The position numbers and the translations under genes were made by a program. DNA of 64,000 nucleotides from Thalassobacillus devorans MSP14 (GTDB lineage Bacteria > Bacillota > Bacilli > Bacillales > Halobacillaceae). The stretch is from the NCBI RefSeq assembly GCF_000496835.1, contig NZ_KI543237.1, forward strand, positions 576,364 to 640,363, given 5' to 3'. Positions 1 to 16,826 of the stretch are shown in pieces. The notes beneath the pieces are model-generated. The model saw only the letters and a list, made by a program, of their open reading frames with translations, was not told the DNA's origin and made no database searches. How positions within the stretch are numbered: position 1 is the stretch's first letter; every line of letters begins with the position of its first letter.

Positions 1-483
1 CTTATCTTGAAGTGGCAATACAACTGATTTCGAATAAAAGTCTTCTAAGTTTTCCAAGGAGTTCACGTATGCTTCTGCATTTTCTAACTTATAAGATCCT
101 TTACTTTGCTGCCCCACATAAAATGTATCTAAAGCAGGAGCATAAATCACTCCAAAAACAGGCTTGCCCTGTTCGATCAAGGCAATATTAACGGTAAACT
201 CATCATTCTTTTTAATAAACTCTTTCGTTCCATCAATCGGGTCAACTAACCAAAATTTCTCCCATGCAGAACGTTCTTCATAAGCAATATTTTTTCCTTC
301 CTCACTTAAAATAGGAATTTCAGGATAGTTTTCCTTCAAAGCTTTTTGAATGACTTCATGTGATTTCATATCTGCTATAGTAAGTGGGGATTCGTCTTCT
401 TTATATTCAACATCAAAATCAGTTTGATAGATTTTCATTATTTCCTGTCCTGCTTCATAAGCTGCTTTAATGACAGATAGCAT
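1..483 (-). CDS. cysQ: 3'(2'),5'-bisphosphate nucleotidase CysQ (partial, 3' end outside window)
   Basis: Hydrolyses 3'-phosphoadenosine 5'-phosphate (PAP) to AMP, removing the inhibitory by-product of PAPS-dependent sulfotransferases. Read on the minus strand from the ATG at 483, the frame stays open to base 1, so 161 N-terminal codons are visible of a family length near 260-280. The inositol-monophosphatase-fold metal motifs are present: LSEEG near residue 72 and DPIDGTKEF near residue 91. A GAGGAGG ribosome binding site lies just upstream of the start. It follows cysC by 53 bases, with a terminator-like hairpin between them, and is the last visible gene of a sat-permease-cysC-cysQ run. The family assignment is firm. 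The role in PAP removal for polysaccharide sulfation is inferred from context. Confidence 0.9.
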   Translation of the reverse strand, partial: MLSVIKAAYEAGQEIMKIYQTDFDVEYKEDESPLTIADMKSHEVIQKALKENYPEIPILSEEGKNIAYEERSAWEKFWLVDPIDGTKEFIKKNDEFTVNIALIEQGKPVFGVIYAPALDTFYVGQQSKGSYKLENAEAYVNSLENLEDFYSKSVVLPLQDK

Positions 484-504
484 ATACTTCCTCCTCATAA
501 AAGA

Positions 505-531
505 CAATCGCCAGCAAAGTACTGGCGATTG
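505..531 (-). terminator. Terminator-like hairpin between cysC and cysQ
   Basis: A perfect 10-base inverted repeat (CAATCGCCAG / CTGGCGATTG, 7-base loop) is followed on the minus strand by TCTTTTAT and then directly by the cysQ ribosome binding site. It looks like an intrinsic terminator or attenuator that would lower cysQ expression relative to cysC. Confidence 0.6.
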
Positions 532-536
532 CTTGT

Positions 537-1133
537 TTAAATTAATTGCTGCTTTACTAGGTAACTGATAATCGTTTCAACAGATTCGTCCAAGTTCTGA
601 CGGTCGGTTTCCACCACTACTTCAGGACTGTTAGGCTCTTCATATGGAGCATCAATCCCAGTGAAGCCCTTGATTTCTCCTGAACGAGCCTTCTGATACA
701 AACCTTTCGGGTCACGTTTCTCACATTCTTCTAGAGAACATTTTACAAAAACTTCGATGAATTCTCCTTTTCCAAGAAGTTCACGGACCTGGTCGCGATC
801 TTCACGATATGGAGAAATGAAAGCTGTCATGGTTACTAGACCAGCATCATTCATCAATTTAGCAACTTCACCGATACGGCGAATATTTTCGGTACGATCT
901 TCCGGACTGAAGCCTAAATTCTTATTTAATCCATGGCGTACATTATCCCCATCGAGACGATAAGAACGGATGCCACGTTCATGTAATGCTCTTTCCAGTG
1001 CTACAGAAACAGTAGATTTACCAGACCCAGAGAGCCCTGTAAACCAAATCACCGGGCTTTTATGGTCATTCATGCTTTGACGATCTTGTTTGGATACAGT
1101 TGAGTCATGCCATGTGATGTTAGTAGATTTCAT
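537..1133 (-). CDS. cysC: Adenylyl-sulfate kinase CysC
   Basis: Phosphorylates adenosine 5'-phosphosulfate (APS) with ATP to give PAPS, the universal sulfate donor. The 198-residue protein has the P-loop GLSGSGKST near residues 33-41, the DGDNVR motif, [10 protein letters not shown], and [13 protein letters not shown] near the C-terminus, all typical of stand-alone APS kinases. The ATG at 1133 follows AAGGAG at good spacing. It lies 14 bases after the SLC13 permease gene in a run with sat and cysQ. No PAPS reductase (cysH) is present in the window. The set is therefore complete for making PAPS and clearing PAP, but not for assimilatory reduction. That supports a donor role for sulfation, although assimilation genes could lie elsewhere. 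Confidence 0.93.
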
Positions 1134-1147
1134 ATAACTACTCCTTC

Positions 1148-2923
1148 TTAAAGAAACTTATAATAAACAATCAAAACGGTTAGTAACATAACCATTACTG
1201 TCAATGGAAAACCTGCCTTAATATAGTCTTTAAATGAATAGCCTCCAGGTCCATAGACAATCAGATTAGTTTGGTAACCAATCGGTGATAAAAAGCTTGC
1301 GGATGCAGCTATAGCAACTAAAATCGCTATGGCCATCGGTTCTATCCCATAGCTAACAGCTACTTCATAGCCAATCGGAAACATGATTACCGCTGCGGCA
1401 TTATTGGTAATCAATTCAGTAAACAAATTGGTGAGCATATAAAGCGCTATTAAAATAACAATGATCCCTAATGGTGCTAACAAGTCAATCATCCCACTAG
1501 CCAACCATTTAGCTGTTCCAGTTTGGATAATTACATTACCGATTCCCAATGCACTAGCAATTAAAAGAAGAACTTGAAATTGAACAGAAGCCTTCGCTTG
1601 TTTAGGTGAGATTATATTTAAGGCGATTAAAATGCCTACCGTAAGAACCATTGCTTTGAAAATGGATAACATGTTAAAGGTGACTAAGCTAATCATTAAT
1701 ACTAGCAGTACAAGAGAGAACCACCCTGTTCTTTCGTTCTCTTGAAACTTCCCATTTTTAATCGGCGATGTCAGATAGAAATCTCTTCTCTCTTCCAGAT
1801 TGCTTTCAAAATCCTTTCCTGTTACTAGAAGCATAAGATCTCCAGCTTTAGGAATGATTTCGCCAATTTTACCCTGGACTTTTTCATCATTTCGATGGAC
1901 CGCTAACACAGCCGCATCATACCTCTCTCGAAATCGACTTTCTTTAATGGTTTGACCTAATAACGAGGACTGATGAGAAACAACAATTTCTACTAATTGA
2001 TTGTTTCCATTCTTAATATCATCCAGGGATAAGTCGGTCCCTGTATCAAGTTGAAGCCCCTTGCGTTTCTGTAAATCGGCGATAGTCGACATCATACCTG
2101 AAAAAATCAGGCGATCACCACTATGTATTTTTGTTTGACTGGTTACAGGGGAAATCCTCTTTTTCCCACGAATAACCTCAATCAAATATAAGCCTTTCAA
2201 ATTACGTAACTCCGCATCTTCAATCGATTCCCCTAAGAAGGGGAACTCATCAGTAACTACCATTTCACTAAGATAGTCTTTGGTATTTTCTCTTACCTTT
2301 TCGATTAAGCTTTTATGGTCAGGGAGGAAACGGTGTCCTACCACTATCAAATAAACAAGGCCAAAAAAGGTGATAGGAACCCCCACCCATGCCAACTCGA
2401 AAAAGTTAAATCCTTTTTCCCCAAAATCAAGCAGTAATCCATGAATAACAAGGTTAGTAGAGGTTCCCATTAGAGTGATGGTACCCCCTAAAATTGCTGC
2501 ATAAGATAAGGGTAAAAGAAATTTGGACGGAGAGATATTATTCTCCGATGCCCACTTACGTACTATTGGCGTTAAAGTAACAACTATCGGTGTATTATTT
2601 AGAAATCCAGAAAATCCAGAGATAGGTACGATGAGTCGAAACATCGCACTCTGGCGCGTCTTTGCTTTTGCCAGCATAAATGAAACCAGCCGCTCTACTA
2701 ATCCACTACGTTCAAAAGCACCAGCAACGATGAATAACAAACCAACGGTCAACATGCCCTCATTAGAAAACCCAACAAGTGCTTCATTAGTACTGACGAT
2801 ATCTGTCATTATGAAAAAGAACAGAGTGAAAAAAACAAGAAGATCCGGTCGAGCCATTTCGAAAAATAACCCAACCAGCATTAATGTTATAACAATGATC
2901 ACAAGGATCATTTCAAACGTCAT
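1148..2923 (-). CDS. SLC13/DASS-family permease with two RCK_C (TrkA-C) domains, probable sulfate transporter
   Basis: A 591-residue membrane protein of the divalent anion:sodium symporter family. Hydrophobic helices occupy about residues 1-195 and 395-591. The cytoplasmic middle carries two TrkA-C-like modules at about 210-285 and 295-375, the usual arrangement in bacterial SLC13 sulfate permeases. The motifs [10 protein letters not shown] and NNTPIVV in the first half, and [11 protein letters not shown] and SPIGYQTNL in the second, are family signatures. It sits 12 bases after sat and 14 before cysC, which points to sulfate as substrate; other divalent anions cannot be excluded from sequence. 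The ATG at 2923 follows an AGAGGATGG site. Confidence 0.85.
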
Positions 2924-2935
2924 TCAGACCATCCT

Positions 2936-4093
2936 CTATACGGTTTGCGTTTGCATCCCTTTAATTAAGACATCTGCCACTTCCGGGCGAGAGAATTCTT
3001 TCGGAGGACGCTCCCCATTACGTAACAATTCACGTACCTTTGTACCGCTAAGGTGTACATGGTTTTCTTTACCGTGTGGGCAAGTTTTAGCAGATGCCAT
3101 GTTTCCGCACTCTGTGCAGTAGAAAGCATGCTCGAATTTAAAAATTTGAATGCCTAATTCATCTTCGAACTGAGAAATAAAATCTTGTGCTTCATAGGTT
3201 CCATAATAGTCACCCACTCCTGCATGGTCACGACCGATAATAAAGTGAGTACAGCCATAGTTTTTACGGACAATCGCATGCAAAATTGCTTCTTTTGGTC
3301 CTGCATATCGCATTGCTGCCGGATAGATTACAAGTCGAGTAACATCTTCCGGATAATAGTTTTTAAGAATCACCTGGTAGCTTTTCATACGTACATCTGC
3401 TGGAATATCATCAGACTTTGTTTCTCCTACAAGCGGATTTAGCAACAAACCATCAACTGCCTCTAATGCACACTTTTGAATGTACTCATGAGCTCGGTGT
3501 ACCGGATTACGAGTTTGGAAGCCAACAACTGTCTTCCACCCTAAGTCTGAAAACATTTGTCTAGTTTCGCTTGGGTCCATATAGAAATCATTAAATTCAC
3601 CATGATCTGGACGATTCAATAGTGTAATAGGTCCACCTAGGTAGACGTCACCACGCTCATAAAGTTTTTTCACACCTGCATGAGCTTCTTCAGTTGTTCC
3701 ATATACCTTTTGTGCTTCTAGTTCTTTATCATAACTATATTTCTCTTCCAGGCTAAGTGTCCCATAAACTACACCATCTTCACCTTTAAGAGCGATTTCC
3801 TCTCCGACTTGGTAATTTTCAGCTTCTTTTGAGGAAACTGATAGAGTAATAGGAATACTCCATATTGTTCCATCAGCAAGACGGGTGTTACGTACAACAC
3901 TTTCGTAATCTTCCTGGCCCATAAAACCTGCAAGGGGACTAAAGCCTCCGATACCGATTAACTCTAAATCTGAAATCGCCCATGGTGAAAGTATTAAGGA
4001 ATTTAGTGACTTGGCATCTGATAAAGCTTCTCCTTTTTTACTCCCTTCTAGTTCTCTATTAATTAGAGTTCCTCCGTGTGCTTTGATAGACAT
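2936..4093 (-). CDS. sat: Sulfate adenylyltransferase (ATP sulfurylase) Sat
   Basis: Activates sulfate with ATP to form APS and pyrophosphate, the first step to PAPS. This is the single-chain Bacillus/archaeal type of about 385 residues. The nucleotide-binding motif [11 protein letters not shown] lies near residue 190 and [17 protein letters not shown] near 285. A CTECGN...CPHG zinc-like segment near the C-terminus matches this subfamily. The ATG at 4093 is preferred over an in-frame ATG 24 bases upstream because a GGAGG site stands at the right distance only for 4093. It follows the ManC gene by 61 bases on the same strand with no terminator seen between, so it appears to belong to the exopolysaccharide operon. 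Confidence 0.93.
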
Positions 4094-4154
4094 AATAATA
4101 CCTCCATAAATATTCATATAATATTTACTTAATTATTTTTCTTCCTAAACAATA

Positions 4155-5525
4155 CTACTCGTATACTTTACAGTAATTCTCTATTTCTTCCCAAGTAAGT
4201 ACTATCCGATAAATATCTTCTTCGATTAATTCACTACCAGTTTGGACTTCTATGATTTCCATGTCTGTGGTAGCTTTCAACGCATGTCTTGATGATAATG
4301 GGATTTGCACAACATCCCCAGCTCTTACATGCTTTAATTGATCGTTTATTACAAATACTCCTTCACCCTTAACTATAGTCCAAACTTCACTTCTTTTATA
4401 ATGAACCTGGTAACTTAAGTTATTTCCACTATTTATTCCTATTCTTTTTGTTAATACCTCATTACCTTCACTATATTTGGTATATTCTAAAACTCGGTAC
4501 CATCCCCAACGTCGCTCTTCGTACATGGGTCTTCCATTAAATTTATTAGAATAGCTTTTTACTTTTGGACTAGATTCTTTATCAGTAACGAGAATTCCAT
4601 CAGGACTAGCTGCCACTACAGCATTATTAATACCTAATAATGTAATTGGTATATCTAATTCATTAACTATGTGGGAATTATCTATATCATCACTAATGAC
4701 ACCTTTACCAATTATCTTCGAGGAAATTTCATCAGTTAGTGTGTTCCAAGTACCAAGATCTTTCCAGTAACCCTCATATGGTATTGCTACAATTTGATGC
4801 GCTTTTTCTACTACTTCATAATCAAAACTTTTTTTTGGTAGTAAGCTATACAACTTTAAGAGATCTTCATAGTTGATAGGTAAACCTTTCTCTTTTAGTA
4901 AGTTAATAATAAATTCTAATTTAAATGCAAATACACCACAATTCCAGAGAGCATTTTTTTCAATTAATGAACTAGCGGTCATTTCATTAGGCTTTTCCTT
5001 AAAATAATCAACTCTTAAGAAATTTTTACTTTCCTTTTCTTCAGGTACAATATATCCATATTTTTCAGAAGGGTATGTTGGTTTTACACCCATAAGCGCT
5101 AAATCTCCGTTAGATTCTATTAAAGTTGCCTCTAAATCTTTTACCCTTTCAAAAAAATGATCTTCTACGTAAGGGTCAACCGGGAGCATTGCTACTACTT
5201 CGTTAAGACTACATCCCTGCACTGAATACAAATATACTGCTGCTAAAGCAATTGCTGGGAATGTATCTCTTCTCTCAGGCTCTGTTACGATAGTGACATC
5301 TAACCCTAGTTGACTTGTTATCATATCTACTTGTGATCTACTAGTGGCTATTATGGAACTATTAGATAGATTATTCTTTTCTATTTGACCCCAAACTCGT
5401 TGTACCATTGAAACTTTTTGATCATTTGAGCCACTTAGCACTTTTAAAAATTGTTTAGACCTAGAATCATTAGATAAAGGCCAAAGTCGTTTCCCCGAGC
5501 CACCTGATAACAATACTAATTTCAT
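4155..5525 (-). CDS. Mannose-1-phosphate guanylyltransferase (ManC/type II PMI-like)
   Basis: Makes GDP-mannose from mannose-1-phosphate and GTP, a nucleotide sugar for polysaccharide repeat units. The 456-residue protein has the N-terminal nucleotidyltransferase signature SGGSGKRLWPLS at residues 7-18, followed by SKQFL. It also has FKEKP near residue 172 and a C-terminal cupin segment (YQVHYKRSEVWTIVKGEG) typical of the bifunctional or ManC-type enzymes. Its ATG at 5525 overlaps the stop of the upstream glycosyltransferase by one base (TAATG), with GGAGG ahead, indicating translational coupling. Whether the cupin part has phosphomannose isomerase activity cannot be told from sequence. Confidence 0.85.
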   Translation of the reverse strand: MKLVLLSGGSGKRLWPLSNDSRSKQFLKVLSGSNDQKVSMVQRVWGQIEKNNLSNSSIIATSRSQVDMITSQLGLDVTIVTEPERRDTFPAIALAAVYLYSVQGCSLNEVVAMLPVDPYVEDHFFERVKDLEATLIESNGDLALMGVKPTYPSEKYGYIVPEEKESKNFLRVDYFKEKPNEMTASSLIEKNALWNCGVFAFKLEFIINLLKEKGLPINYEDLLKLYSLLPKKSFDYEVVEKAHQIVAIPYEGYWKDLGTWNTLTDEISSKIIGKGVISDDIDNSHIVNELDIPITLLGINNAVVAASPDGILVTDKESSPKVKSYSNKFNGRPMYEERRWGWYRVLEYTKYSEGNEVLTKRIGINSGNNLSYQVHYKRSEVWTIVKGEGVFVINDQLKHVRAGDVVQIPLSSRHALKATTDMEIIEVQTGSELIEEDIYRIVLTWEEIENYCKVYE

Positions 5526-6664
5526 TATTTAACCTCCGTACTCTTATTGCTAAGCATTTTGCTATCTACAAATCTTTTTAATTCTTTTCTGAAACGTTCA
5601 GTTCCAAAAAATTCAGCGTGTTTTCTACAATTTTGAGGTGAAAATACATATTCCATTTCTTCAAATTTTTTGACAGCATTTTTAATTGCTTCATTTGTTT
5701 GTTCATAGAAAAATAACCCAGTGGGATTTTCTATTACGTTATTACCGCGGACAGTTTCTAATGAACCTCCTTTACCATAAGCAATAACTGGCGTACCACA
5801 AGCCTGAGCTTCAACAGGCGTTATACCAAAATCTTCTTCTGCCGCAAATATAAACGCTTTTGCACGTTGCATATGATTTCTTAATACTTCAAAAGATTGA
5901 TATCCTAATAAAGTTATATTTTCAGTAGCTTTGGCTTTTATCTTCTTGAAGTCCGGTCCATCTCCAATGACAATTAATTGTTTATCAGGCATTTTATTAA
6001 ACGCCTCTACAATTTTGTCAATTTTTTTATATGGCACCATGCGTGAGGCAGTTAGATAAAAATCCTCCTTAGTTTCGTGCAAGGAAAACCTAGTTATATC
6101 GACTGGTGGATAAATAGTTTCGGCCTCTCTCCTATACACTTTCCATATTCTATTACTGATAAAATTAGAATTAGATAAAAAGTAATCTACTCCGTTAGAT
6201 GTTCGGTAATCCCAATTTCTTATCTTATAAAGAAAATATCTAATTAATACAGACTTTATCCCCTTCTCAACCCCAGCTTCCTTTAAATACTGATTTTGCA
6301 AGTCCCATGCATAACGAATCGGTGAATGTACATAAGATATATGTATTTGATCTGGCCCCGTTATTACTCCTTTTGCAACTGCATGCGAGCTAGATATAAT
6401 AATTTCATACTCTGACATGTCAAATTGCTCAACTGCAAAAGGCATAATAGGTAAATAATTCCTATATTTATTCTTAGCGAAAGGCAATTTTTGAATAAAA
6501 GAAGTGTTAACTTCTTTATTCATAATAAAAGACCTTTCATTTTCGGGTATAAAGTTTACAATACTATATACATCAGCATGGGGAAATACTTTTAATATTT
6601 GTTCTAGTACTTTTTCAGCTCCAGCATATGTAACTAACCAATCATGTACGACCGCTACTTTCAT
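5525..6664 (-). CDS. Glycosyltransferase family 4 (probable mannosyltransferase)
   Basis: A 379-residue GT-B enzyme, probably acting at the cytoplasmic face on the lipid-linked repeat unit. The N-terminus (VAVVHDWLVTYAGAEKVLEQ) resembles WbaZ-like mannosyltransferases. The C-terminal GT4 donor site shows FAAEEDFGITPVEAQACGTP with the EX7E-type spacing, then AYGKGGSLE. There is no signal peptide or membrane helix. It overlaps the preceding glycosyltransferase gene by 23 bases and the following ManC gene by one. The neighbouring GDP-mannose synthesis makes mannose a plausible donor, but specificity is inferred. Confidence 0.8.
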   Translation of the reverse strand: MKVAVVHDWLVTYAGAEKVLEQILKVFPHADVYSIVNFIPENERSFIMNKEVNTSFIQKLPFAKNKYRNYLPIMPFAVEQFDMSEYEIIISSSHAVAKGVITGPDQIHISYVHSPIRYAWDLQNQYLKEAGVEKGIKSVLIRYFLYKIRNWDYRTSNGVDYFLSNSNFISNRIWKVYRREAETIYPPVDITRFSLHETKEDFYLTASRMVPYKKIDKIVEAFNKMPDKQLIVIGDGPDFKKIKAKATENITLLGYQSFEVLRNHMQRAKAFIFAAEEDFGITPVEAQACGTPVIAYGKGGSLETVRGNNVIENPTGLFFYEQTNEAIKNAVKKFEEMEYVFSPQNCRKHAEFFGTERFRKELKRFVDSKMLSNKSTEVK

Positions 6665-7727
6665 TTATAACCCTCTTTTCAATTAAGGAATAAATTTGTT
6701 TTCCAGCTAACTCCCAAGTGAATTTATTTGATTGTTTATTGCCTTTTTCTATTAATAAATTTCTATGGTGCGGGTCACTATATAACTTTTTAATTGTTTT
6801 AGAAAGGGAGTGAGCATCATCAGGAGCTATATACTCTGCTGCATCGCCACAAACCTCTGGCAATGATGCTTGATCTGATACAATCACTGGACAGCCTGTT
6901 GCCATAGCTTCTATTGGCGGTAAACCGAATCCTTCATAGTAAGAAGGATATATAAAACATAAAGCATTCTCGTACAAGGCTTTTAATTGTTCATCAGTTA
7001 CATATCCAACGTGCAACACATTCTCAACTTTAGAAAAGTTAGTTTTCTTAAAAATTTCAAAGTTATTTCCCCCCGCAATTACTAATGGGATATTTTTAGA
7101 AAAGTAATCCGCAGCCCGAGTGATCACTTTGAAATTTTTATTTGGGTTCATACTACTAACTGCTAAAACAAATTCTTTATTTTTTAATTTGTATTTTTCT
7201 ATGATTGCATTATCACTATTAATCCTTTTAATTTGTTCTTTACCTTCAATTATTACATGTATTCTATCTTCTTTAATTTTTAAATATTTACTTATTTCAT
7301 TTCTTGAAAAATTCGAGATTGTTATTATTTCATTTTTACTGAACTTGTTTGATTTAAAAAGCATCTTATAAAACAGTTGAAAGCTTCTTGAAAAATTTTG
7401 AGGTGTGGCAAATACAGCCATATCATGTATTACAGTTAACTGTTTTTTCTTTAATATCGGAGATGTATTACACAAATTTAGTAAAAGCTTATTTCTAGTA
7501 AAACGGCGCAAATCAAATTGCTCCCAAAGATGACCTTTTGTTTTTCCATATTTAACTACCATAATATTTTCCAATTCTAACTCACAAGTGATATTTTCAG
7601 GGATAACCAATATAAATTTAATTTTGCTATTTTTCAATCTATCTAAAGAGATTAAAATTTCTCTCGCAAACCTTTGTACTCCTGTTATTCTTTGTGTTAA
7701 GAAACGACCGTTTATATAGACCTTCAT
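6642..7727 (-). CDS. Glycosyltransferase family 4
   Basis: A 361-residue cytoplasmic GT-B glycosyltransferase. The N-terminus NGRFLTQRITGVQRFA has the GVQR(Y/F) motif common to polysaccharide GT4 enzymes. The C-terminal donor-binding segment is YPSYYEGFGLPPIEAMATG followed by SLPEVCGDAA. The ATG at 7727 follows AGGGG. It sits 14 bases after the flippase gene and overlaps the next glycosyltransferase by 23 bases. It probably adds one sugar of the repeat unit; donor and linkage cannot be predicted. The coding region is markedly AT-rich, as are the neighbouring wzx and wzy genes, which is common in horizontally exchanged polysaccharide loci. Confidence 0.8.
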   Translation of the reverse strand: MKVYINGRFLTQRITGVQRFAREILISLDRLKNSKIKFILVIPENITCELELENIMVVKYGKTKGHLWEQFDLRRFTRNKLLLNLCNTSPILKKKQLTVIHDMAVFATPQNFSRSFQLFYKMLFKSNKFSKNEIITISNFSRNEISKYLKIKEDRIHVIIEGKEQIKRINSDNAIIEKYKLKNKEFVLAVSSMNPNKNFKVITRAADYFSKNIPLVIAGGNNFEIFKKTNFSKVENVLHVGYVTDEQLKALYENALCFIYPSYYEGFGLPPIEAMATGCPVIVSDQASLPEVCGDAAEYIAPDDAHSLSKTIKKLYSDPHHRNLLIEKGNKQSNKFTWELAGKQIYSLIEKRVINESSGRT

Positions 7728-7741
7728 TATAAAACCCCTAA

Positions 7742-8968
7742 TTATCTTATTTTCATAAAATCTTTTATATTTATATCAAACTGTTTTAGTACTAAAACAA
7801 AACCTGTGAGATTCATTAATATAAGAGAAATCATACTTGCTATTGCTGCACCATTAATTCCATATTTGGGAATTAATATTAAATTCAATGAAATATTAAG
7901 TATACATGTAATTAAATTTGTATACATTTGATAAATAGGTTTACCAGTCATAGCTAGCATTATCCATACTCCGCCAACTGATATATTTATAAATTGCCCT
8001 ATTACTCTGAGAGTTAGAGCATAACCACCCTCTACAAATTCTCTTCCAAAGACCACTAATATTTCCTCTCTAAACAGTATTAAAAAAAGAGATAATAGCA
8101 TACCTGTAAAAAATAAGTATTTTGTTGACTTTAGATAAATCGTTTTTAATTTTTCTAGCTTACCTAAGTGATAAAGAGTAGATATTTTAGGGGCAAACAC
8201 AGTATTGAATATAATTAAACACATTAGTAATAGGTTTGACACTTGTACCGTTACTTGATATATACCCACCGAGGTATTCGTGGAGAAATAACCAATCATT
8301 AATATATCTGTTTTATCTATTAATATACCTATAAATGAACTAAACATTAAGGGAGCAGAATATTTTAATATATCTTTATCCACATAAATTTTATGGAATT
8401 TACTTTTATTTTGGTAGAAGTACAATAATATAGAAAATGTTACTGATATATAAACAGCTAGTACTATACTAGCCACATTTTTTGATAAAAAATAGTAGAA
8501 TATTAAAAGAAGACTAATTCTTAATAATAAGGACCAAAAGCCATTAATGATATAAAATCCTTTTATGTTATTACTAGCTCTATATATTCCAAAAAACAAT
8601 TGTTCCATTGAAAGCATCCATATAAGGGGTAGTAAAATAATAGTTATTGGATCGCTAATAAACAATAACAATATAACCATTATTATTATACTTAATAAAA
8701 AGTTGAATAAAAATACAAAACTGATTTGCTTACTTCCATTTTTAGGTATATTAAATATTAGGCCATTGTCTAATCCTGCTTTAGCTAAGATCATAAAAAG
8801 AATTACCACTGTATAACCAAAGGTATATTTCCCAAACTCTTCAGCTCCAAATAACCTTGTACATAAGAAAGTAAACACCATAGTTAACAATGTATATGAT
8901 ACTTTGCCAAAAAAAGATTGTAATAATTTAATTATAAAATCATTTTTATATAAAATTTTTTTTATCAC
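7742..8968 (-). CDS. Wzx-type polysaccharide flippase (oligosaccharide translocase)
   Basis: An integral membrane protein of the MATE/MVF-like polysaccharide biosynthesis family, predicted to flip the undecaprenyl-linked repeat unit across the membrane. About 408 residues carry roughly 12 to 14 hydrophobic helices, with charged connectors such as FGAEEFGKYTFG near the N-terminus. I chose the GTG at 8968, 8 bases downstream of the preceding stop codon and 7 bases after a GGTGA site. The longer in-frame alternative is a TTG at 9007 that overlaps the upstream gene and has a poorer binding site. The region is very AT-rich. Function follows from topology and from co-occurrence with a priming transferase and Wzy. 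Confidence 0.8.
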   Translation of the reverse strand: MIKKILYKNDFIIKLLQSFFGKVSYTLLTMVFTFLCTRLFGAEEFGKYTFGYTVVILFMILAKAGLDNGLIFNIPKNGSKQISFVFLFNFLLSIIIMVILLLFISDPITIILLPLIWMLSMEQLFFGIYRASNNIKGFYIINGFWSLLLRISLLLIFYYFLSKNVASIVLAVYISVTFSILLYFYQNKSKFHKIYVDKDILKYSAPLMFSSFIGILIDKTDILMIGYFSTNTSVGIYQVTVQVSNLLLMCLIIFNTVFAPKISTLYHLGKLEKLKTIYLKSTKYLFFTGMLLSLFLILFREEILVVFGREFVEGGYALTLRVIGQFINISVGGVWIMLAMTGKPIYQMYTNLITCILNISLNLILIPKYGINGAAIASMISLILMNLTGFVLVLKQFDINIKDFMKIR

Positions 8969-8975
8969 TAGTGTT

Positions 8976-9806
8976 TCACCGCGTCCATTTGCTCCTAAGC
9001 CTTTCAATTTCTTCGGTAGTATAGAAATGCCTCATATACTTTGAGTCATAAAGAGAATCAATAAATTTAGTAGTTGGTTTGAAATTTTCTTTAAAATTAT
9101 TATATAAGTCTGAATACCACTTTTCATTTGCAACATTAGAACTTATCAATTGGAAGTTCTTCAACCCCAAAAATTCTCCAATCATTTTCTCGTTTTCTTT
9201 AATAGTTTCAAGCTTCAATAAAAGTATTTCTATATTCCCTTTAGTGATTACAGAGGCTCCTCTTTCTTTATTAAATCTATAATCATATACATCTATTCCT
9301 ATGGTTCGTTGAAATTCGTTATCAAACCAATTTATTGAACTTTCTTGATTAAGCTTCTCATAAAATTGATAATTAAGCTCCTTTAAAACACTTTCTTTAT
9401 CTAAACGTTTACCTTTTTCAAAATATATATCATACAAAAAAATTGGTGCAAATTGAAAAAATAAAGAAATGTTTCTACTAATTGGATCTCTAACAAGAGT
9501 TATAATTTTGGTAGTTCCTTCATTTTTTAAATTTTTTTTAAACTCTTTTCTTGTCAGTTTCATTTCTACTGGTCGTAAAAACTTATTTAATGCACTATTT
9601 AACCTGTTTTTTCCTCTTAAATTATTTTTTGACTTAAACATTTCTTGCTCCCAAAATGGGTAAAAACTGTGGATGTGAATTGAATTATCGATTGATTTTT
9701 CTAAAGAAGATGATCCTACTTTCCCCATTTGATAGATATATATTTTATTGTTTGGATTTGCTATATCTTTATACCACATGTATCTATTACTAACACCCTG
9801 TAACAT
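8976..9806 (-). CDS. Sulfotransferase-like capsular polysaccharide protein (NKWYS family)
   Basis: A 276-residue soluble protein of the putative capsular polysaccharide synthesis (NKWYS) family, a branch of the P-loop sulfotransferase fold. The 5'-phosphosulfate loop is YQMGKVGSSSL near residues 25-35. The 3'-phosphate-binding signature LVRDPISRNISLFFQ lies near 104-118. The family-naming NEKWYS occurs near 218. These features support PAPS as co-substrate. The gene lies between wzx and wzy and belongs to the operon that ends with sat, SLC13, cysC and cysQ, so transfer of sulfate to the polysaccharide is the simplest reading. Activity and acceptor are inferred. An ATG at 9806 follows AGGAGGAGACC. 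Confidence 0.75.
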   Translation of the reverse strand: MLQGVSNRYMWYKDIANPNNKIYIYQMGKVGSSSLEKSIDNSIHIHSFYPFWEQEMFKSKNNLRGKNRLNSALNKFLRPVEMKLTRKEFKKNLKNEGTTKIITLVRDPISRNISLFFQFAPIFLYDIYFEKGKRLDKESVLKELNYQFYEKLNQESSINWFDNEFQRTIGIDVYDYRFNKERGASVITKGNIEILLLKLETIKENEKMIGEFLGLKNFQLISSNVANEKWYSDLYNNFKENFKPTTKFIDSLYDSKYMRHFYTTEEIERLRSKWTR

Positions 9807-9826
9807 TTTGGTCTCCTCCTTAATTA

Positions 9827-11089
9827 TTAACGATAACCCTCTTCATTAGGTATATTTTTTATTTTATATGAGAAAAAATAAGCAAATACGCTAAAAAGTA
9901 GAATTGGAAAAGTACTACTCGATGACAAATAGAGTGTTCTCAAGATTTCTAAGTATGAAATAAATAACACTGGATATAAAAAAACACCTATTCCATTTTG
10001 TTTTACAAATGATTTATACAAAACCCCGGAAATAATTGCATAAAAAATTGTATAAATATAACCCTTTATTATTCCTAAGTTAAACATTATCATAAACAAT
10101 CCAGATGGATTGTTAAATTCGGTATCTCCATATGTTCTTAAATATGTTTTATAATCAGAATTAGTACTTGTTACTACGGTTTCACTTAAATATTCTCCAA
10201 TAAGTGGCATTTGGTATAGCCAATTTAATATATACCTCATTTCTCCGCTTGGCCATTGTAAGTTATTCATGGCCCCCACCCCATTGTTAAGCGCAGTACT
10301 GTAGTAGTTAAGGATTCTTTCAGTAGTAAAACTAACTATATTTTCAGATGTTACTGAAGAATAATAATTCCAGGATCTAAAATATTCAGTAATACCAAAA
10401 AGTAAAAATAGTAACCCTATTCCTAAAAAAGGAAGTATAGGTACTACCTTGTTAAGAAACAAAAAAGAGGGCTTTTTATCTCGAATATATATTATTAGTC
10501 CGATGGTGAGAGGTATTGCTAATTCAATTAATGCCAATCTTTCAGACCATATAAAAACTCTAAATATAGTTATTATAATAATTATAAAAAGGTAAATAGA
10601 AAACTTTTTGTCTATTAATTTCTTTTGATACATAATCACATAATTAACATAACAAATAGCATATACTACCCCTAGTTGTGATAAAGTAGTAATACCTGGA
10701 ATAGTAGAAATTTGATTTCTTAAGCCATCAGTACCTGTTTCTCCTAAAAAAATATTTAATATTAAATTAGGTTGCAATATTAATTCTCCGTACCAAACTA
10801 AATAACCAAATAAACATAATATTGCAGTTAAATGGAGATAGAATGGTTTTACTACTATGATGTAATTGTTTTTTTTATTTTTGTTCATACCCTTTATAAT
10901 AATAAACGTTATAAATACAAAAGATAGTAAATACAATAACCCAATATAAAAATAAAAACCATTTAAGTAATTATAAGATTCATCTATATAAATTGAATTC
11001 CTATAAAACAAATAAATAGAAAGGTATATTGGTGTTACAAAACCAATAAACAATTTGTGGGGTTCTAACCACCAAGAATAACTGCTCAT
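9827..11089 (-). CDS. Wzy-type oligosaccharide repeat unit polymerase
   Basis: A 420-residue protein with about ten to twelve strongly hydrophobic segments and a larger hydrophilic loop around residues 225-325, the usual layout of O-antigen/capsule repeat-unit polymerases. Motifs are weak in this family, so the call rests on topology, length and position between the CDP-glycerol-type transferase and the NKWYS gene. It would polymerise flipped repeat units outside the membrane. The ATG at 11089 follows AGGAAGGGG. The sequence is very AT-rich, like wzx. Confidence 0.72.
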   Translation of the reverse strand: MSSYSWWLEPHKLFIGFVTPIYLSIYLFYRNSIYIDESYNYLNGFYFYIGLLYLLSFVFITFIIIKGMNKNKKNNYIIVVKPFYLHLTAILCLFGYLVWYGELILQPNLILNIFLGETGTDGLRNQISTIPGITTLSQLGVVYAICYVNYVIMYQKKLIDKKFSIYLFIIIIITIFRVFIWSERLALIELAIPLTIGLIIYIRDKKPSFLFLNKVVPILPFLGIGLLFLLFGITEYFRSWNYYSSVTSENIVSFTTERILNYYSTALNNGVGAMNNLQWPSGEMRYILNWLYQMPLIGEYLSETVVTSTNSDYKTYLRTYGDTEFNNPSGLFMIMFNLGIIKGYIYTIFYAIISGVLYKSFVKQNGIGVFLYPVLFISYLEILRTLYLSSSSTFPILLFSVFAYFFSYKIKNIPNEEGYR

Positions 11090-11107
11090 CCCCTTCCTCC
11101 TTATTTT

Positions 11108-12241
11108 TTATATTTGTTTTAAAATTTTTAAAGAAGCTTGTTTAAGCTCGCTATTAACTATAACTTTCTCTAATTCACTATCCACAATAAAATCATCACT
11201 ATTTTTGAGAGCTCCTAAGAAGCCATCCATGCTTTTCACTATGTGCTCTTTAAATAAGTGTTCAAATTCAATTATAAAGCCTCTGTTTTCCGAATATTTC
11301 TTTAAATCATTGCAATACAAAATTACCGGTTTCTTTAATGGTAAAAAATCAAAAACTACTGACGAGTAATCAGTAATTAATACATCTACAAAAGGTAAAA
11401 CCTCTTGAATGTTAGTACCTGAACTAAATAAATAAATATTTTCATAAGCATCAGTATTTATTTTTCTCTTATCAAATGGATGTAATTTAATATATAATTT
11501 ACTAGATTTTTTTTTCAATATTTGGTTTATATTATCTAATTGTGATTCATTAAATATATTTTCGGTTTCATAATCTCTGAAAGTCGGTGCAAATAAAAAA
11601 ACCTTATTATCCTTTTTATAAATACTTTCTTGAGGGAAGGGACTTTTGATCTCTATTCCAAATTTCGATGAATCTAATAAAAATTCCATACGAGGATAGC
11701 CGATAGTTTTAATTTTGTCTGGCTTTAAGTTAAAGCATTTTGAGTATATATTATTAAAATAGACATTGTTAGAAATGAAAATATTTGTTCTTTTGGATTT
11801 ATAATAATTATTAATTTTACCTAATAACTTAATATTTTTGTCTAAAAATTCTATTTTTTTCATTGGAATTCCATGATGTAAATTTACTACTTTAGTCTTT
11901 TTATTATAAATAACGGGCATGACGTCGCTTAAACTATGTGTAATAAAGATTGCATGTGCTTTCATGGAATACACAAATGCATTCTTACTAAAATAATATT
12001 CTGCTGGTAATCCTTTATCCTTTAATTCTTTAACTATGGTCTTATCCTTTGAAATCCAAACTACGTTATAATTTCCATGCCTTCTAGCATAGAAATATAA
12101 ATATTTAGTATTGTCTTCAAACCCTCTTCCTCCTCTTGCCCCAAAAAGCAGCAATCCTTCTTCAACCTTGAAGAAGTTTCTTAGCACTATAGATATACAA
12201 TACAAAAGAAGGTATTTAAATTTTTTAACCATGGTAACCAT
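11108..12241 (-). CDS. CDP-glycerol glycerophosphotransferase family protein
   Basis: A 377-residue member of the TagB/TagF-like family (Pfam Glyphos_transf), which transfers glycerol-phosphate or related polyol-phosphate units, or in some capsule loci sugar phosphates. Visible motifs are LHHGIPMKKIEFL near residue 121, KLHPFD near 252, and TDYSSVVFDFLPLKKPVI near 289, all part of the family's catalytic core. The N-terminus has a short hydrophobic amphipathic segment, consistent with membrane association. The start is uncertain: ATG codons at 12241 and 12232 both have weak binding sites. It implies that the polymer may carry phosphodiester groups as well as sulfate; this is inference. Confidence 0.78.
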   Translation of the reverse strand: MVTMVKKFKYLLLYCISIVLRNFFKVEEGLLLFGARGGRGFEDNTKYLYFYARRHGNYNVVWISKDKTIVKELKDKGLPAEYYFSKNAFVYSMKAHAIFITHSLSDVMPVIYNKKTKVVNLHHGIPMKKIEFLDKNIKLLGKINNYYKSKRTNIFISNNVYFNNIYSKCFNLKPDKIKTIGYPRMEFLLDSSKFGIEIKSPFPQESIYKKDNKVFLFAPTFRDYETENIFNESQLDNINQILKKKSSKLYIKLHPFDKRKINTDAYENIYLFSSGTNIQEVLPFVDVLITDYSSVVFDFLPLKKPVILYCNDLKKYSENRGFIIEFEHLFKEHIVKSMDGFLGALKNSDDFIVDSELEKVIVNSELKQASLKILKQI

Positions 12242-12256
12242 CCAGTCTAAAATATA

Positions 12257-12940
12257 TTAGTAAGCATCCTTCGAGCCAAAGAGTACAAAAATCGTTTTAA
12301 AAATAAGTTTTAAATCAATTAATAAACTTCTTTCTTTTATATATTTCAAATCCAACTCGACCCATTTCTCAAAACTTATATTACTTCTTCCACTAACTTG
12401 CCAGTAGCAAGTAAGTCCAGGTGTAACTTTTAGTCGTTGCTTTTCATATACATTATATTTTTCTACCTCAATTGGCAACGGGGGTCTAGGACCTACTAAA
12501 CTCATTTCCCCTTTTAAAACATTTATTAACTGAGGCAATTCATCAATACTAGTCTTCCTTATAAACTTCCCTGTTTTTGTTATTCGTGGATCTTCTTTAA
12601 TTTTAAATACTGGTCCATCTGCTTCGTTCTTATGAAGCAGGGATGCTTTAATTTCCTCAGCATTAGAAATCATTGACCTAAACTTATATATATAAAAAAC
12701 TTTCTCATTTTCCCCAACACGTAGTTGTTTAAAAAATATAGGACCTTTTCTATCTTCAAGTTTTATTAATAAAGCTATTACTAAAAATAATGGAGCCAAT
12801 AAAATAACACCTAAGGCAGCCCCTATAATATCTATAAAACGCTTGCTAATTAAGTAAAAACTATTTTTTCTTAAATCTTGTTCTAGTAACTGTTCCGGAT
12901 GATTTTTGCCTTTATTTTTTTTCAAAGTTGTTATTTCCAC
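12257..12940 (-). CDS. Undecaprenyl-phosphate sugar-1-phosphate transferase (priming enzyme)
   Basis: A bacterial sugar transferase (Pfam PF02397) of 227 residues that starts repeat-unit synthesis by placing a sugar-1-phosphate on undecaprenyl phosphate. One membrane segment at about residues 35-58 follows KRFIDI. The catalytic region contains GPIFFKQLRVGENEK, YKFRSM, RKTSIDELPQLINVL, GEMSLVGPRPP and LKVTPGLTCYWQVSGRS. It starts at a GTG at 12940 with GGTGA eight bases upstream. It is the second gene of the operon, 38 bases after galU. Sugar specificity (glucose or galactose, from UDP-glucose made next door) is inferred. Confidence 0.88.
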   Translation of the reverse strand: MEITTLKKNKGKNHPEQLLEQDLRKNSFYLISKRFIDIIGAALGVILLAPLFLVIALLIKLEDRKGPIFFKQLRVGENEKVFYIYKFRSMISNAEEIKASLLHKNEADGPVFKIKEDPRITKTGKFIRKTSIDELPQLINVLKGEMSLVGPRPPLPIEVEKYNVYEKQRLKVTPGLTCYWQVSGRSNISFEKWVELDLKYIKERSLLIDLKLIFKTIFVLFGSKDAY

Positions 12941-12978
12941 AAAGATTCACCAACTTTCTTTTTTGGTTATATTCTGAA

Positions 12979-13860
12979 TTATTTAGCATCTACTTCAACC
13001 TCTAATAATTGTTGAAGTATTTTTTTTACCTTATCCCCCAACTCTGGATCTAATAAAGCAATTTCAATTGTTGTCTTGATAAATCCTAATTTCTCTCCAA
13101 CATCATATCGCTTACCTTCAAAGTCATAAGAATATACTTTTTGCAGTACATTTAAATTTTGGATTGCATCTGTTAATTGGATTTCCCCACCAGAGCCAGT
13201 TTTTTGTTTATCAAGGAAAGGGAAAATTTCTGGAGTTAAAATATATCGACCCATAATTGCTAGATTTGAAGGGGCAGTCCCTTTTGCTGGTTTTTCAACA
13301 AAGTTGTTAACCTTATACCTACGCCCTTCAATTGTATTAGGGTCTATTATTCCATAACGATGAGTTTCTTCGTCAGGGACCTGCTGCACTCCTATTATAG
13401 AGGAACCTGTTTGTTCGTATTGCTCTATAAGCTGTTTTAAACAAGGCTTTTCAGCCTCGACAATGTCATCACCTAACAAAACTGCAAACGGTTCATCGCC
13501 TATAAAGTTACGCGCACACCAAACTGCATGACCTAAACCTTTTGGATCTTTCTGTCTAATGTAATGAATGTCCACATTGGATGTTTCTTTAACTTTATCT
13601 AGTAATTCGAACTTTTCTTTTTTAATCAAGTTGTCTTCTAACTCATAATTATTATCAAAATGATCTTCAATCGCTCGTTTACCTTTTCCAGTAACGATAA
13701 TGATATCTTCAATACCTGACGCAATTGCTTCCTCTACTATGTATTGAATCGTTGGTTTGTCGACAATTGGAAGCATTTCTTTTGGCATCGCCTTTGTAGC
13801 CGGTAAAAAACGAGTCCCTAAACCGGCTGCCGGAATAATAGCTTTTCTAACTTTTTTCAT
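12979..13860 (-). CDS. galU: UTP-glucose-1-phosphate uridylyltransferase (GtaB/GalU)
   Basis: Forms UDP-glucose from UTP and glucose-1-phosphate, feeding the polysaccharide operon. The 293-residue sequence has the nucleotidyltransferase signature [20 protein letters not shown] at residues 11-30. Further motifs are [30 protein letters not shown] and [14 protein letters not shown]. The ATG at 13860 follows AGGGGGAGACATT. It is the first gene of the EPS operon, with a roughly 300-base leader from an extended -10 promoter near 14161. Confidence 0.93.
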
Positions 13861-13871
13861 AATGTCTCCCC

Positions 13872-14342: not shown

Positions 14343-15110
14343 TTAAAAAATTTTAAGAAACTTCTTCTGCTTGGTTCGTTCCGGCGGATCAGCAGCCATA
14401 ACCTGGCCGTCTGTAACATAAAATGCATTTTCCGTAAAATGGTACACGTAGCTGGCTCCGTACTTTTTCTTTACTTCCCGCATAGCTTCTTTCATAAAAA
14501 AGCCTCTTCGTTTTGTATCATGCGCATCTGAGGCAATCACATGGGTGAGATTAGCCTCGATTAACTGATGGGAGAACTTCTGAACGGATTTCCCGAATTT
14601 CCCCGCAACACTACCTGCTGTAACTTGGGTATAAGCTCCACTTTTCACAAAATGGTACAACAAGTTCGGATCCTCGATGAATTTTTTATTTCTTTCCGGA
14701 TGCACGATGATCGGTTTATAACCTGCACGCTGTAATTCGAATAACATGGATTTCGTATAATTCGGCACCTGATCATTTGGCAGCTCGACGAATATATACC
14801 CGCTGTCAATATTGATTGGGATCATCACTTCCTCGTTTAACTCTTCCACCATGTCTCCATTGATCCGGGCCTCCTGGCCTGGCAATACCGTCAATGGAAT
14901 TCCCGCACGCTCTAGTTCAAAATTTAGTTCCTGGACAAAATGCAAGACCCCTAAACGTGGATTTTTATATTTTCCATTTCGGTGGTGCGGGGTGGCAACT
15001 ATCGTATCAATCCCCTGCTCAACGGCTGCCCTAGCCATTGCTAAACTATCTTCTAACGACTGTGCTCCGTCATCTACTCCGGGAAGTATATGACTGTGAA
15101 TATCAATCAT
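14343..15110 (-). CDS. CpsB/CapC (YwqE)-type PHP-domain tyrosine-protein phosphatase
   Basis: Dephosphorylates the bacterial tyrosine kinase of the polysaccharide assembly system. The 255-residue PHP-fold protein begins MIDIHSHILPGVDDG, followed by VATPHH, VHPERN and ASDAHD, which supply the metal-binding His and Asp residues. The start at 15110 matches the family N-terminus and has AGGGGGTCAAAGG upstream. A longer in-frame ATG at 15146 also has a fair binding site. It is transcribed from its own promoter after the capAB terminator. A degraded copy of its C-terminus lies just downstream at 13872-13994. Confidence 0.9.
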   Translation of the reverse strand: MIDIHSHILPGVDDGAQSLEDSLAMARAAVEQGIDTIVATPHHRNGKYKNPRLGVLHFVQELNFELERAGIPLTVLPGQEARINGDMVEELNEEVMIPINIDSGYIFVELPNDQVPNYTKSMLFELQRAGYKPIIVHPERNKKFIEDPNLLYHFVKSGAYTQVTAGSVAGKFGKSVQKFSHQLIEANLTHVIASDAHDTKRRGFFMKEAMREVKKKYGASYVYHFTENAFYVTDGQVMAADPPERTKQKKFLKIF

Positions 15111-15187
15111 CCTTTGACCCCCTGTGCTTTTAGTACTATGTAACATCTAATTCTCCCTATTTATCTACCAAATAATTACTTTTAACT

Positions 15188-15347: not shown

Positions 15348-15384
15348 AAAAAAGTGCTCTCTGCTTTCGCAGAGAGCACTTTTT
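15348..15384 (-). terminator. Intrinsic terminator after capB
   Basis: A perfect stem, AAAAAAGTGCTCTCTGC with its complement and a TTTC loop, begins at the capB stop codon. It has T-runs on both strands and would end capAB transcription before cpsB. Confidence 0.88.
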
Positions 15385-16078
15385 ATGAGCCATAGTAATA
15401 ATAATAATTTGATTGTTTTTGTTCGACATCATTTAACACAGCACCAAGTACATTGGCATTTACTTGATGCAGCAAATCTACCGCTTTTTTACCAGCATCG
15501 ATCTCTGTCTGTTTACTGCGGGTGACGAGTAGTACTCCATCACATAAGTTCGATAAAATCTGTCCATCAGTAACCGCCAACACGGGAGCTGTATCAAATA
15601 TCACCAGATCGTAATCTTGTTTCGCTGTTTGTAAGAAGTTGTTCATTGCACGGGAGCCCAGTAATTCCGAAGGATTCGGCGGGATCGGACCCGATGACAT
15701 CAAATCCAGGTTTTCCATATCACTTTGTTGGATTACCTCATGTATATCTTTATCGCCAATCAGTACGCTGCTAAGTCCCCGGCTGTTATCCAATCGGAAA
15801 GTGTAATGCAGGGTCGGCTTTCGCATATCGGCATCGATGAGCAGCACCTTTTTTGCTTGCTGGGCAAAAGTTACTGCTAAATTAGAAACCGTGAGGGATT
15901 TCCCTTCTGCAGGTCCTGCCGAAGTAACCATCATGCTATGGAGTTCTTGATCCACGGAAGTAAATTGTAAGTTTGTCCGTATTGTACGATATTGTTCCGA
16001 AATTGGGGAACGAGGGTTCATTTTGGCAATTAACGTGCGTGCTTTATTATTAGACAGTTTCTTTCTGCTTCGACGCAT
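15383..16078 (-). CDS. CpsD/CapB (YwqD)-type BY-kinase, tyrosine-protein kinase
   Basis: The cytoplasmic catalytic half of the split Gram-positive bacterial tyrosine kinase that controls polysaccharide chain length and export. The 231-residue sequence has Walker A SAGPAEGKS near residue 53, Walker A' VLLIDADMRKP near 79 and Walker B DLVIFDTAP near 157. The C-terminal cluster QSNYYYYYGS provides the autophosphorylation tyrosines. Its ATG at 16078 overlaps the end of capA by 29 bases. The CpsB phosphatase downstream is the expected partner. Confidence 0.92.
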   Translation of the reverse strand: MRRSRKKLSNNKARTLIAKMNPRSPISEQYRTIRTNLQFTSVDQELHSMMVTSAGPAEGKSLTVSNLAVTFAQQAKKVLLIDADMRKPTLHYTFRLDNSRGLSSVLIGDKDIHEVIQQSDMENLDLMSSGPIPPNPSELLGSRAMNNFLQTAKQDYDLVIFDTAPVLAVTDGQILSNLCDGVLLVTRSKQTEIDAGKKAVDLLHQVNANVLGAVLNDVEQKQSNYYYYYGS

Positions 16079-16826
16079 AACGGCTATGTCCTCCCTTCGC
16101 CCTTAGTGAAGTGGCATTGGCTGCTTCGGAAGCTTTCGAGATTTCCTCTTCACTGATATGAGTGATAATACCCAATACAGGCAAGCCCAGTTTATCTTCT
16201 ATATCTTTCTCTGCCTTGATCGTATTATCCAGATACTCCAATAAGAAGGCGACCCCGACACCAACCATCAGTCCAAGGACCAGTGCAATTGCCATATTCA
16301 GAAACGGCTTCGGACTGACGGGACTTGGATTGTCTACCGGCTGTGCTTCGGATAATATATTGACATTATCCACATTCATATAATCCTGAATTTTTTCATG
16401 AAAAATCTCAACGGTAGTGTTCGCCACCATAGCAGCGCGATTCTGGTTCGTATCCGTCACTGTAACAGATACTACTTGTGAATTCTGTTCGCTGGATATA
16501 TTCAGCTTTTGACGCAGACTGTCTGCTGACATACTTAAGTTCATTTCAGAAACGACATCATCCAGGATAGCCGGACTTTTAATGACTACATTATATGTAT
16601 TGATGAGTTCGACATTGGTACGTATGTCATTGACGTCAAACTCTGATTCTTCCTGCGACTGGCTTGTATTTACAATAAATTGCGTAGTGGCTTCATATGT
16701 AGGCGTAAGAAAAAAATAACTGATTAATGCAGCAATGATAACTGCTCCTGCTGTTGTTGACAAAATCAGCCAAAAGCGCTTCTTCAGCACCTGCGCAATC
16801 TCCTTCAGCGAAATTGTTTCTTCCAT
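16050..16826 (-). CDS. CapA (YwqC)-type Wzz-domain polysaccharide co-polymerase / kinase activator
   Basis: The membrane adaptor that activates CapB and sets chain length. About 258 residues carry an N-terminal Wzz domain with a membrane helix at about 19-41, an extracytoplasmic loop to about 170, and a second helix near 175-197 preceded by the proline-rich SPVSPKPFLNM. The cytoplasmic tail would contact CapB. The ATG at 16826 follows GGAGG; an in-frame upstream start at 16862 lacks one. The tail's final segment extends over the capB start, so the two are translationally coupled. Confidence 0.9.
   Translation of the reverse strand: MEETISLKEIAQVLKKRFWLILSTTAGAVIIAALISYFFLTPTYEATTQFIVNTSQSQEESEFDVNDIRTNVELINTYNVVIKSPAILDDVVSEMNLSMSADSLRQKLNISSEQNSQVVSVTVTDTNQNRAAMVANTTVEIFHEKIQDYMNVDNVNILSEAQPVDNPSPVSPKPFLNMAIALVLGLMVGVGVAFLLEYLDNTIKAEKDIEDKLGLPVLGIITHISEEEISKASEAANATSLRAKGGHSRYASKQKETV

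Follow-up and report, generated by a model that had tools for sequence, protein, structure and literature searches.

Why would a row of polysaccharide genes in Thalassobacillus devorans MSP14 close with four genes for sulfate uptake and activation? We addressed this question in a 64,000-nucleotide (nt) stretch of contig NZ_KI543237.1, hereafter the window, where positions 1-13860 hold thirteen open reading frames (ORFs) on the minus strand, running from galU to manC and then through sat, an SLC13 permease gene, cysC and cysQ, the last four of which we call the cassette. In our judgement, the row is very probably an operon that both encodes a Wzx/Wzy route to a surface polysaccharide and brings a sulfate supply of its own; judged from the genes, the sulfation reading is well supported, and the organism probably coats itself with sulfated sugars. 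This answer is carried by the content, order and copy number of the genes, a separate gene set for cysteine synthesis, the clade of the ATP sulfurylase Sat, the association of such cassettes with sulfotransferase genes and conserved motifs in a protein of the NKWYS family encoded in the row.

Gene row and proposed pathway

In the proposed pathway, the SLC13 permease would import sulfate, Sat would make adenosine 5'-phosphosulfate (APS) from it and CysC would make 3'-phosphoadenosine 5'-phosphosulfate (PAPS). The NKWYS protein would then transfer the sulfuryl group from PAPS onto one of the repeat-unit sugars, probably while the unit is still lipid-linked in the cytoplasm and Wzx has yet to flip it, and CysQ would clear inhibitory 3'-phosphoadenosine 5'-phosphate (PAP). 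ManC together with a cytidine diphosphate (CDP)-glycerol-type transferase suggests a mannose-containing, possibly glycerol-phosphate-bearing repeat unit. The row and its upstream neighbors comprise the following features, with expectation values (E) or bit scores for the families matched.

12979..13860, minus strand: galU, UTP-glucose-1-phosphate uridylyltransferase, first gene of the row (TIGR01099, 406 bits, cut-off 326.8)
12257..12940, minus strand: polyprenyl-phosphate sugar-1-phosphate (priming) transferase (TIGR03025, E 7e-87, 292.5 bits, just under the cut-off of 295.55)
11108..12241, minus strand: CDP-glycerol-type glycerophosphotransferase, Glyphos_transf (PF04464, E 3e-62)
9827..11089, minus strand: Wzy-like repeat-unit polymerase (TIGR04370, glyco_rpt_poly, E 3e-8, under cut-off; no Pfam match)
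8976..9806, minus strand: NKWYS protein, proposed PAPS-dependent carbohydrate sulfotransferase (PF10364, E 1e-33)
7742..9007, minus strand: Wzx flippase, Polysacc_synt (PF01943, E 2e-15)
6642..7727, minus strand: family 4 glycosyltransferase (GT4; PF00534, E 8e-32)
5525..6664, minus strand: GT4 glycosyltransferase (PF00534, E 5e-25)
4155..5525, minus strand: ManC-type mannose-1-phosphate guanylyltransferase with isomerase-type domain, ManC/GMP-PMI (PF00483, PF01050; TIGR01479 under cut-off)
2936..4117, minus strand: sat, monomeric ATP sulfurylase of the cassette clade (PF01747, E 1e-102; tree)
1148..2923, minus strand: SLC13/DASS-type permease with two TrkA_C domains, proposed sulfate importer (PF03600, PF00939, PF02080)
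537..1133, minus strand: cysC, APS kinase (PF01583, E 6e-73; TIGR00455 over cut-off)
1..507, minus strand: cysQ, PAP phosphatase (CysQ-type inositol phosphatase), cut by the window end (TIGR01331, E 5e-56 on the cut protein, under cut-off)
14343..15146, minus strand: CpsB/CapC-type phosphatase upstream of the row (PF19567, E 3e-59)
15383..16862, minus strand: wze- and wzc-like pair (ORFs, named by eye)

All thirteen genes of the row lay where the earlier note on this DNA had placed them, closely spaced and with families matched for nearly all; its naming of wzy has the sub-cut-off glyco_rpt_poly match as sole support. The complete cysQ ORF (L002:9680-10507) reaches past the left window end. 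The permease scored 61.9 against PF00939 (cut-off 27) and 214.8 against PF03600 (31.9), and 122 against TIGR00785, under its cut-off of 198.6; its Protein Data Bank (PDB) matches were VcINDY and SLC13 members including member 1. Sulfate is its putative substrate.

Adjoining genes of the row are spaced by -32 to +38 nt, and the reading presumes that they are co-transcribed. By the listed ORFs manC and sat are 37 nt apart; the second, internal ATG of sat is preceded by GGAGG and is more likely the true start, which would make the gap about 61 nt. Terminator and promoter calls here come from consensus scans, which do not prove transcription units. The earlier note had named a strong terminator plus promoter between manC and sat as a finding that would speak against its reading; the scan returned no terminator-like site there, which does not in itself prove co-transcription. 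Promoter-like matches in positions 1-16000 numbered 58 versus 72.5 in shuffles, that is, fewer, and are hence uninformative. A strong terminator-like hairpin (15384-15349) stands at the end of the wze/wzc-like genes, so that this pair is probably a separate unit; taken with a promoter-like site upstream of galU (14188-14161, a consensus match only), it indicates that the unit probably starts at galU. Past cysQ, outside the window, follow a galE-like gene, a LytR-CpsA-Psr-like gene (both named by eye) and a terminator-like site. The LytR-CpsA-Psr-like gene suggests attachment of the polymer to the wall. The galE-like gene (L002:8658-9663) lies in two overlapping reading frames with a break near 9346-9353, which may be a frame break or a sequencing error.

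A separate cysteine set and a second cassette cluster

An assimilatory sulfate reduction operon would carry a reductase with its set, and the window row has none. In the whole genome, PF01507 (search E up to 0.001) picked out a single PAPS/APS reductase (cysH), located at C2:157389 and 420 kb away from the window, in agreement with the earlier note, which had reported no PAPS reductase in the window. A whole-genome search found three sat and three cysC genes. One of each belongs to a cysH-sat-cysC set at that distant site, accompanied by sumT-, sirohaem- and cysJ-like genes (these three named by eye). The genome thus has the separate set for which the earlier note had proposed to look, and the row does not hold the sole assimilatory copies next to a reductase just left of the window. 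Beyond this cysteine set, the row has PAPS-making genes of its own (sat and cysC) and, by homology, a PAP phosphatase (cysQ) and an SLC13-type, putatively sulfate-importing permease.

The remaining two sat/cysC sets have the cassette order sat-SLC13-cysC-cysQ, and each forms the closing part of a Wzx/Wzy polysaccharide cluster. The sat of the second cluster lies about 20 kb left of the window. That cluster encodes a GT4 enzyme, an NKWYS protein, a sulfotransferase-like ORF lacking a Pfam match, a galE-like gene, wzy, wzx, a further GT4 enzyme, a Sulfotransfer_3 protein and a priming transferase, followed by sat, SLC13, cysC and cysQ in the window order and a DegT aminotransferase. Its galE-like gene (L014:16037-17071) is intact in one frame, and the ORF beside its NKWYS gene (L014:17150-17836) shows sulfotransferase-reminiscent motifs by eye, with no Pfam match even at E 1. 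Between the two cassettes, identity is 78% for Sat, 80% for SLC13, 88% for CysC and 66% for CysQ, while Sat and CysC of the cysteine set are 59-63% identical to those of either cassette. Duplication of the cassette, the second sulfation-type cluster to the left and the recurrence in other Bacilli described below go beyond the earlier note.

Cassettes and sulfotransferase genes in the family

A survey of 44 genomes of the family found sat 50 times, and the surroundings of nearly all 50 were read, about 9.6 kb per side where the contig allowed. Full cassettes numbered 11, in nine genomes. In the stretches first read, a sulfotransferase gene, NKWYS included, stood near 9 of the 11 cassettes versus 0 of 29 cysH/cysJ-linked sat loci (Fisher 2e-7), and once two stretches were extended all 11 had one within about 13 kb. 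Within the same distance, a sulfotransferase gene confirmed by Pfam accompanies ten cassettes, all but the window's own, which has NKWYS only; no such gene occurred in the 29 cysteine loci scanned. This count of 29 excludes the cysH-linked sats L021 and L024 (genomes G025 and G033), as does the Sat tree below. Because the sulfotransferase profile was built from genes first spotted by eye beside cassettes, less bias attaches to a Pfam search across whole genomes, in which PF13469 was present in 10 of the 44 genomes, comprising 9/9 with a cassette and 1/35 without (Fisher 1.4e-8, uncorrected for kinship), the lone genome without one being a 1000-contig assembly with 6% contamination. cysQ was absent within 5.5 kb of all 29 cysH/cysJ-linked loci. 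The search for co-located NKWYS, sat, cysC and cysQ that the earlier note had proposed thus brought out a strong cassette-sulfotransferase association. In a third arrangement, SLC13-cysC-sat in order of transcription (L147, L148, L149), a Sulfotransfer_2/Gal-3-O-sulfotransferase-type gene is adjacent in all three loci.

The acceptor could be something other than a polysaccharide: cassette PAPS might be used on a small molecule, lipid or protein, with the polysaccharide-gene neighborhood reflecting shared exchangeable regions. Sulfotransferase families in general act on many acceptors, and those confirmed by Pfam beside the family's cassettes are of the broad Sulfotransfer_1/3 type. We consider this very improbable, as priming, flippase or glycosyltransferase genes lie near 11 of 16 cassette sats (phmmer), and the window's NKWYS gene is embedded in the row, with wzy on one side and wzx on the other, and shares 32 nt with the listed wzx ORF.

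NKWYS occurred in 4 of the 44 genomes. This number excludes a match in G035 (L019), rejected because it scores under the family cut-off and falls in an unrelated ORF that looks CHAT-like by eye. In G025 and G033, the nearness of NKWYS to a sat was likewise rejected as evidence: that sat is cysH-linked, and the two are separated by 18-19 kb with genes that resemble, by eye, nitrite/nitrate reductases. Two further loci stood out by their architecture. In G040, L027:7032-12615 carries two different sat genes, one per end (sat-SLC13-cysC-cysQ-sat). At L193:14028-19499, a cassette adjoins a gene for an 1824-residue multi-domain glycosyltransferase (WbsX, GT4, GT2) whose N-terminal motif appears sulfotransferase-like by eye and is unrecognised by Pfam.

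Phylogeny of the ATP sulfurylase

A quick maximum-likelihood tree of 48 Sat proteins covered 46 of the 50 family sat places plus L033 and L039 from other genomes; L021, L024, a broken sat fragment of G040 and a cut sat of G020 (L122) were left out, and L111 duplicated L150. The 16 cassette Sats, which include L109 and L117 (cysQ present, full set absent), formed with four others one clade (Shimodaira-Hasegawa-like approximate likelihood ratio test 100), apart from 25 cysH-linked Sats. Placing the labels on the tree needed 3 changes versus a shuffled mean of 16.3.

NKWYS as a putative sulfotransferase

The NKWYS protein is the sole sulfotransferase candidate in the window row, while the second cluster has a clear Sulfotransfer_3 gene. 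It is a member of PF10364 (116.6 bits, gathering cut-off 25.1), which Pfam describes as putative capsular polysaccharide synthesis and nothing more; a role as PAPS sulfotransferase, as proposed here, goes beyond that description. In the open-licence literature we found no description of NKWYS by name. Profiles built from 6 and 56 NKWYS sequences had heparan sulfate 3-O-sulfotransferases as their best PDB relatives (E 5e-4 and 4e-4), and a profile-profile alignment with Pfam-confirmed sulfotransferases spanned both PAPS motifs. Across the aligned sequences, K29, S32 and R106 are kept in 56/56 and S114 in 55/56. These residues occupy the positions expected for two PAPS-binding motifs, which we take to be a lysine and serine in the 5'-phosphosulfate loop and an arginine and serine eight residues apart for the 3'-phosphate. 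An AlphaFold2 model of the protein (predicted local distance difference test 91.5, predicted template modeling score 0.89) places both motifs at strand-loop-helix turns.

NKWYS might instead be another kind of enzyme, for example a different transferase, leaving the polymer unsulfated despite an intact cassette. The noncommittal Pfam name and the lack of a close solved relative by sequence speak for this; the near-complete conservation of the four motif residues, the fact that its best PDB matches are sulfotransferases and the placement of both motifs in the model speak against it. We hold this alternative to be very improbable, and favor use of PAPS by NKWYS as the likely activity.

Spread beyond the family

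Class-wide, spread was followed by the permease in 398 genomes (E 1e-60), with matches in 43. At 15 places outside the window's own genome with at least 43% identity, six had sat or CysD/CysN outside a cysteine locus, four of these six with a Pfam sulfotransferase; two were in cysteine loci and seven held the permease alone, which makes the permease by itself a poor marker. NKWYS occurred in 2 of the 398 genomes, the window's own included.

NKWYS was also followed in a wider scan, in which one genome for each of 84,980 species was searched with six NKWYS proteins and the best 80 of 156 relatives were kept, giving 79 loci. Among these best 80, Sat, CysD or CysC lay within 10 kb of NKWYS in 24/79 loci (Bacilli 6/10, Clostridia 4/8, others 14/61, grouped by record title) and in 23 of the 58 loci longer than 20 kb; cysH was near in 1/79. 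Salinibacillus xinjiangensis and Aquibacillus rhizosphaerae (L033, L039) share with the window the relative order NKWYS, wzx, sat, SLC13, cysC, cysQ; in the window, wzx and sat are separated by two GT4 genes and manC. S. xinjiangensis carries two NKWYS genes. CysD/CysN occurs in the NKWYS loci of Gracilibacillus, Rossellomorea, Alkalicoccus and Vulcanibacillus, and CysD/CysN with an SLC13 permease in those of Grimontia and Enterovibrio. Three Lachnospiraceae-type assemblies (L080, L087, L101) have NKWYS near cysD and cysN, with cysQ also in L080, and are candidates for sulfated capsules in Clostridia.

Evidence against sulfation, and possible gene exchange

Several observations weigh against the sulfation reading. 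For NKWYS itself, the Sulfotransfer_2 (PF03567) score was 20.4 with a gathering cut-off of 22, no curated sulfotransferase model passed, and the profile-profile probabilities were modest (54 and 67%). Among the best 80 of 156 relatives, 55/79 NKWYS loci, and 35/58 of those >20 kb, had no nearby activation gene; in the family, the NKWYS genes of G025, G033 and G001 do not stand beside a full cassette. Conversely, L109 and L117 combine a cassette-clade sat and cysQ with no polysaccharide or sulfotransferase genes seen. Within the row, a hairpin between cysC and cysQ (504-532; 13 pairs, a short T-run), which scored on either strand, might act as a partial terminator or be a processing site. Base composition also counts here: G+C content is 26% in the polymer core including NKWYS (7-12 kb) versus 38-41% in the cassette, so that the two may have arrived separately.

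The main objection is that the cassette enzyme can serve cysteine synthesis. The four other Sats of the cassette clade are encoded within cysteine loci (L124, L136-L138; four genomes, all from a single genus of the family), and two further Bacilli have cassette-like-scoring genes in such a locus (L185, which has cysQ, and L186); at these sites a sulfurylase of the sulfation type was apparently taken over for assimilation, or the reverse. In three of the nine cassette genomes, G001 (L123), G019 (L125) and G035 (L119, L131), the only sat found is that of the cassette, which may feed cysteine synthesis as well. A cassette alone is thus no proof of sulfation. At the six loci named, the cassette-type sat comes with cysC and in some with SLC13.

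These cases are also what favors the view that the window's cassette is a spare, high-capacity assimilation set for cysteine that does no more than lie beside polysaccharide genes, with NKWYS doing something else; a PAPS pool, being cell-wide, would in any case be shared. We think this unlikely, given the genome's separate cysH-sat-cysC set, a cassette with cysQ and no reductase where none of the family's 29 cysteine loci has a nearby cysQ (L185, outside the family, does), and sulfotransferase genes that accompany cassettes and not those loci. The earlier note's claim that the four sulfur genes serve sulfation and not cysteine is therefore supported by the separate set and the sulfotransferase association; its exclusion of cysteine is weakened by the six genomes with cassette-type genes in cysteine loci and the three in which no sat was found outside the cassettes.

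Returning to the proposed polysaccharide operon with its own sulfate supply, the difference in G+C content suggests an exchanged polymer core beside a resident cassette. Loss is seen as well: in G040, of the same genus, a 1.15-kb sat/permease piece (L028:9678-10832), 91% identical to window 3410-2262, remains at the matching site between wze-like and LytR-CpsA-Psr-like genes. This remnant is collapsed and internal to sat and permease, so the window row has been lost in that genome. Elsewhere, G040 has a full cassette with a sulfotransferase gene nearby on the other strand.

Relation to known systems and implications

Chemical reports of sulfate in Bacillus polymers exist, and sulfated polysaccharides have so far come mainly from algae, animals, cyanobacteria and some Gram-negative bacteria, the last including the genus Cobetia. 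The capsule of Cobetia marina KMM 1449 is sulfated as shown by structure work, with sulfate on rhamnose and glycerol phosphate on mannose, the latter a parallel to the window's manC and CDP-glycerol-type transferase genes (PMC11766843). As in the window, its capsule cluster region has cysN/cysC, cysD, cysQ and a sulfate permease, plus sulfotransferase genes; unlike the window, it has group III ATP-binding cassette (ABC) export (kps), a heteromeric CysD/CysN sulfurylase and about 70 genes (PMC11766843). Sulfate was likewise shown by structure work in the capsule of Vibrio sp. KMM 8419, whose cluster holds second cysC, cysN and cysD copies and sulfotransferases, and whose authors regard PAPS genes with sulfotransferases in a polysaccharide cluster as a hallmark of a sulfated polysaccharide (PMC11641403). 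It differs from the window in being Gram-negative and in having ABC export and CysD/CysN, and the term cysQ is absent from its main text (PMC11641403). The synechan (xss) cluster of Synechocystis resembles the window in Wzx/Wzy-dependent machinery with dedicated sulfotransferases and differs in being cyanobacterial with its own regulators, PAPS-making genes not being named in the portion of the source at hand (PMC13125312). Passages in PMC4189415 and PMC7356697 deal with marine bacterial polymers and Pontiella.

The gene logic is thus already known from the sulfated capsules of Cobetia and Vibrio. In the open-licence literature, judged mostly on titles and the start of abstracts, we recognised no such cluster in a Gram-positive bacterium and no relevant report linking a sulfotransferase with Halobacillus. 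As far as genes can tell, the form seen in Gram-positive bacteria, which has monomeric Sat, varied sulfotransferases and, in one genome, two copies, is likely a real variant on that logic.

Evenly balanced, in our view, is the broader proposal of a general system for sulfated wall polysaccharides, with swappable parts, in Bacilli both halophilic and other. It would consist of a resident cassette, either sat-SLC13-cysC-cysQ or with CysD/CysN, whose ATP sulfurylase belongs to a lineage of its own, and of polymer cores and different sulfotransferase families (NKWYS, Sulfotransfer_1/2/3, Gal-3-O type) exchanged next to it, sometimes with two systems per cell. Its products may bear sulfate together with glycerol phosphate, in the manner of a teichoic-acid-like capsule that is sulfated. 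If this holds, the NKWYS-CysDN sets in Lachnospiraceae assemblies would extend the system to Clostridia. A cassette-clade sat beside cysQ and away from cysH suggests itself as a genomic marker. A recurrent, self-contained system in Gram-positive Bacilli would widen the range of sulfated-polysaccharide makers, offer a large set of untried sulfotransferases, including the NKWYS family with no stated function, and point to hosts that possibly already make PAPS for sulfation. For halophiles, carrying a strongly charged, sulfated polymer in the wall would plausibly help in adapting to salt.

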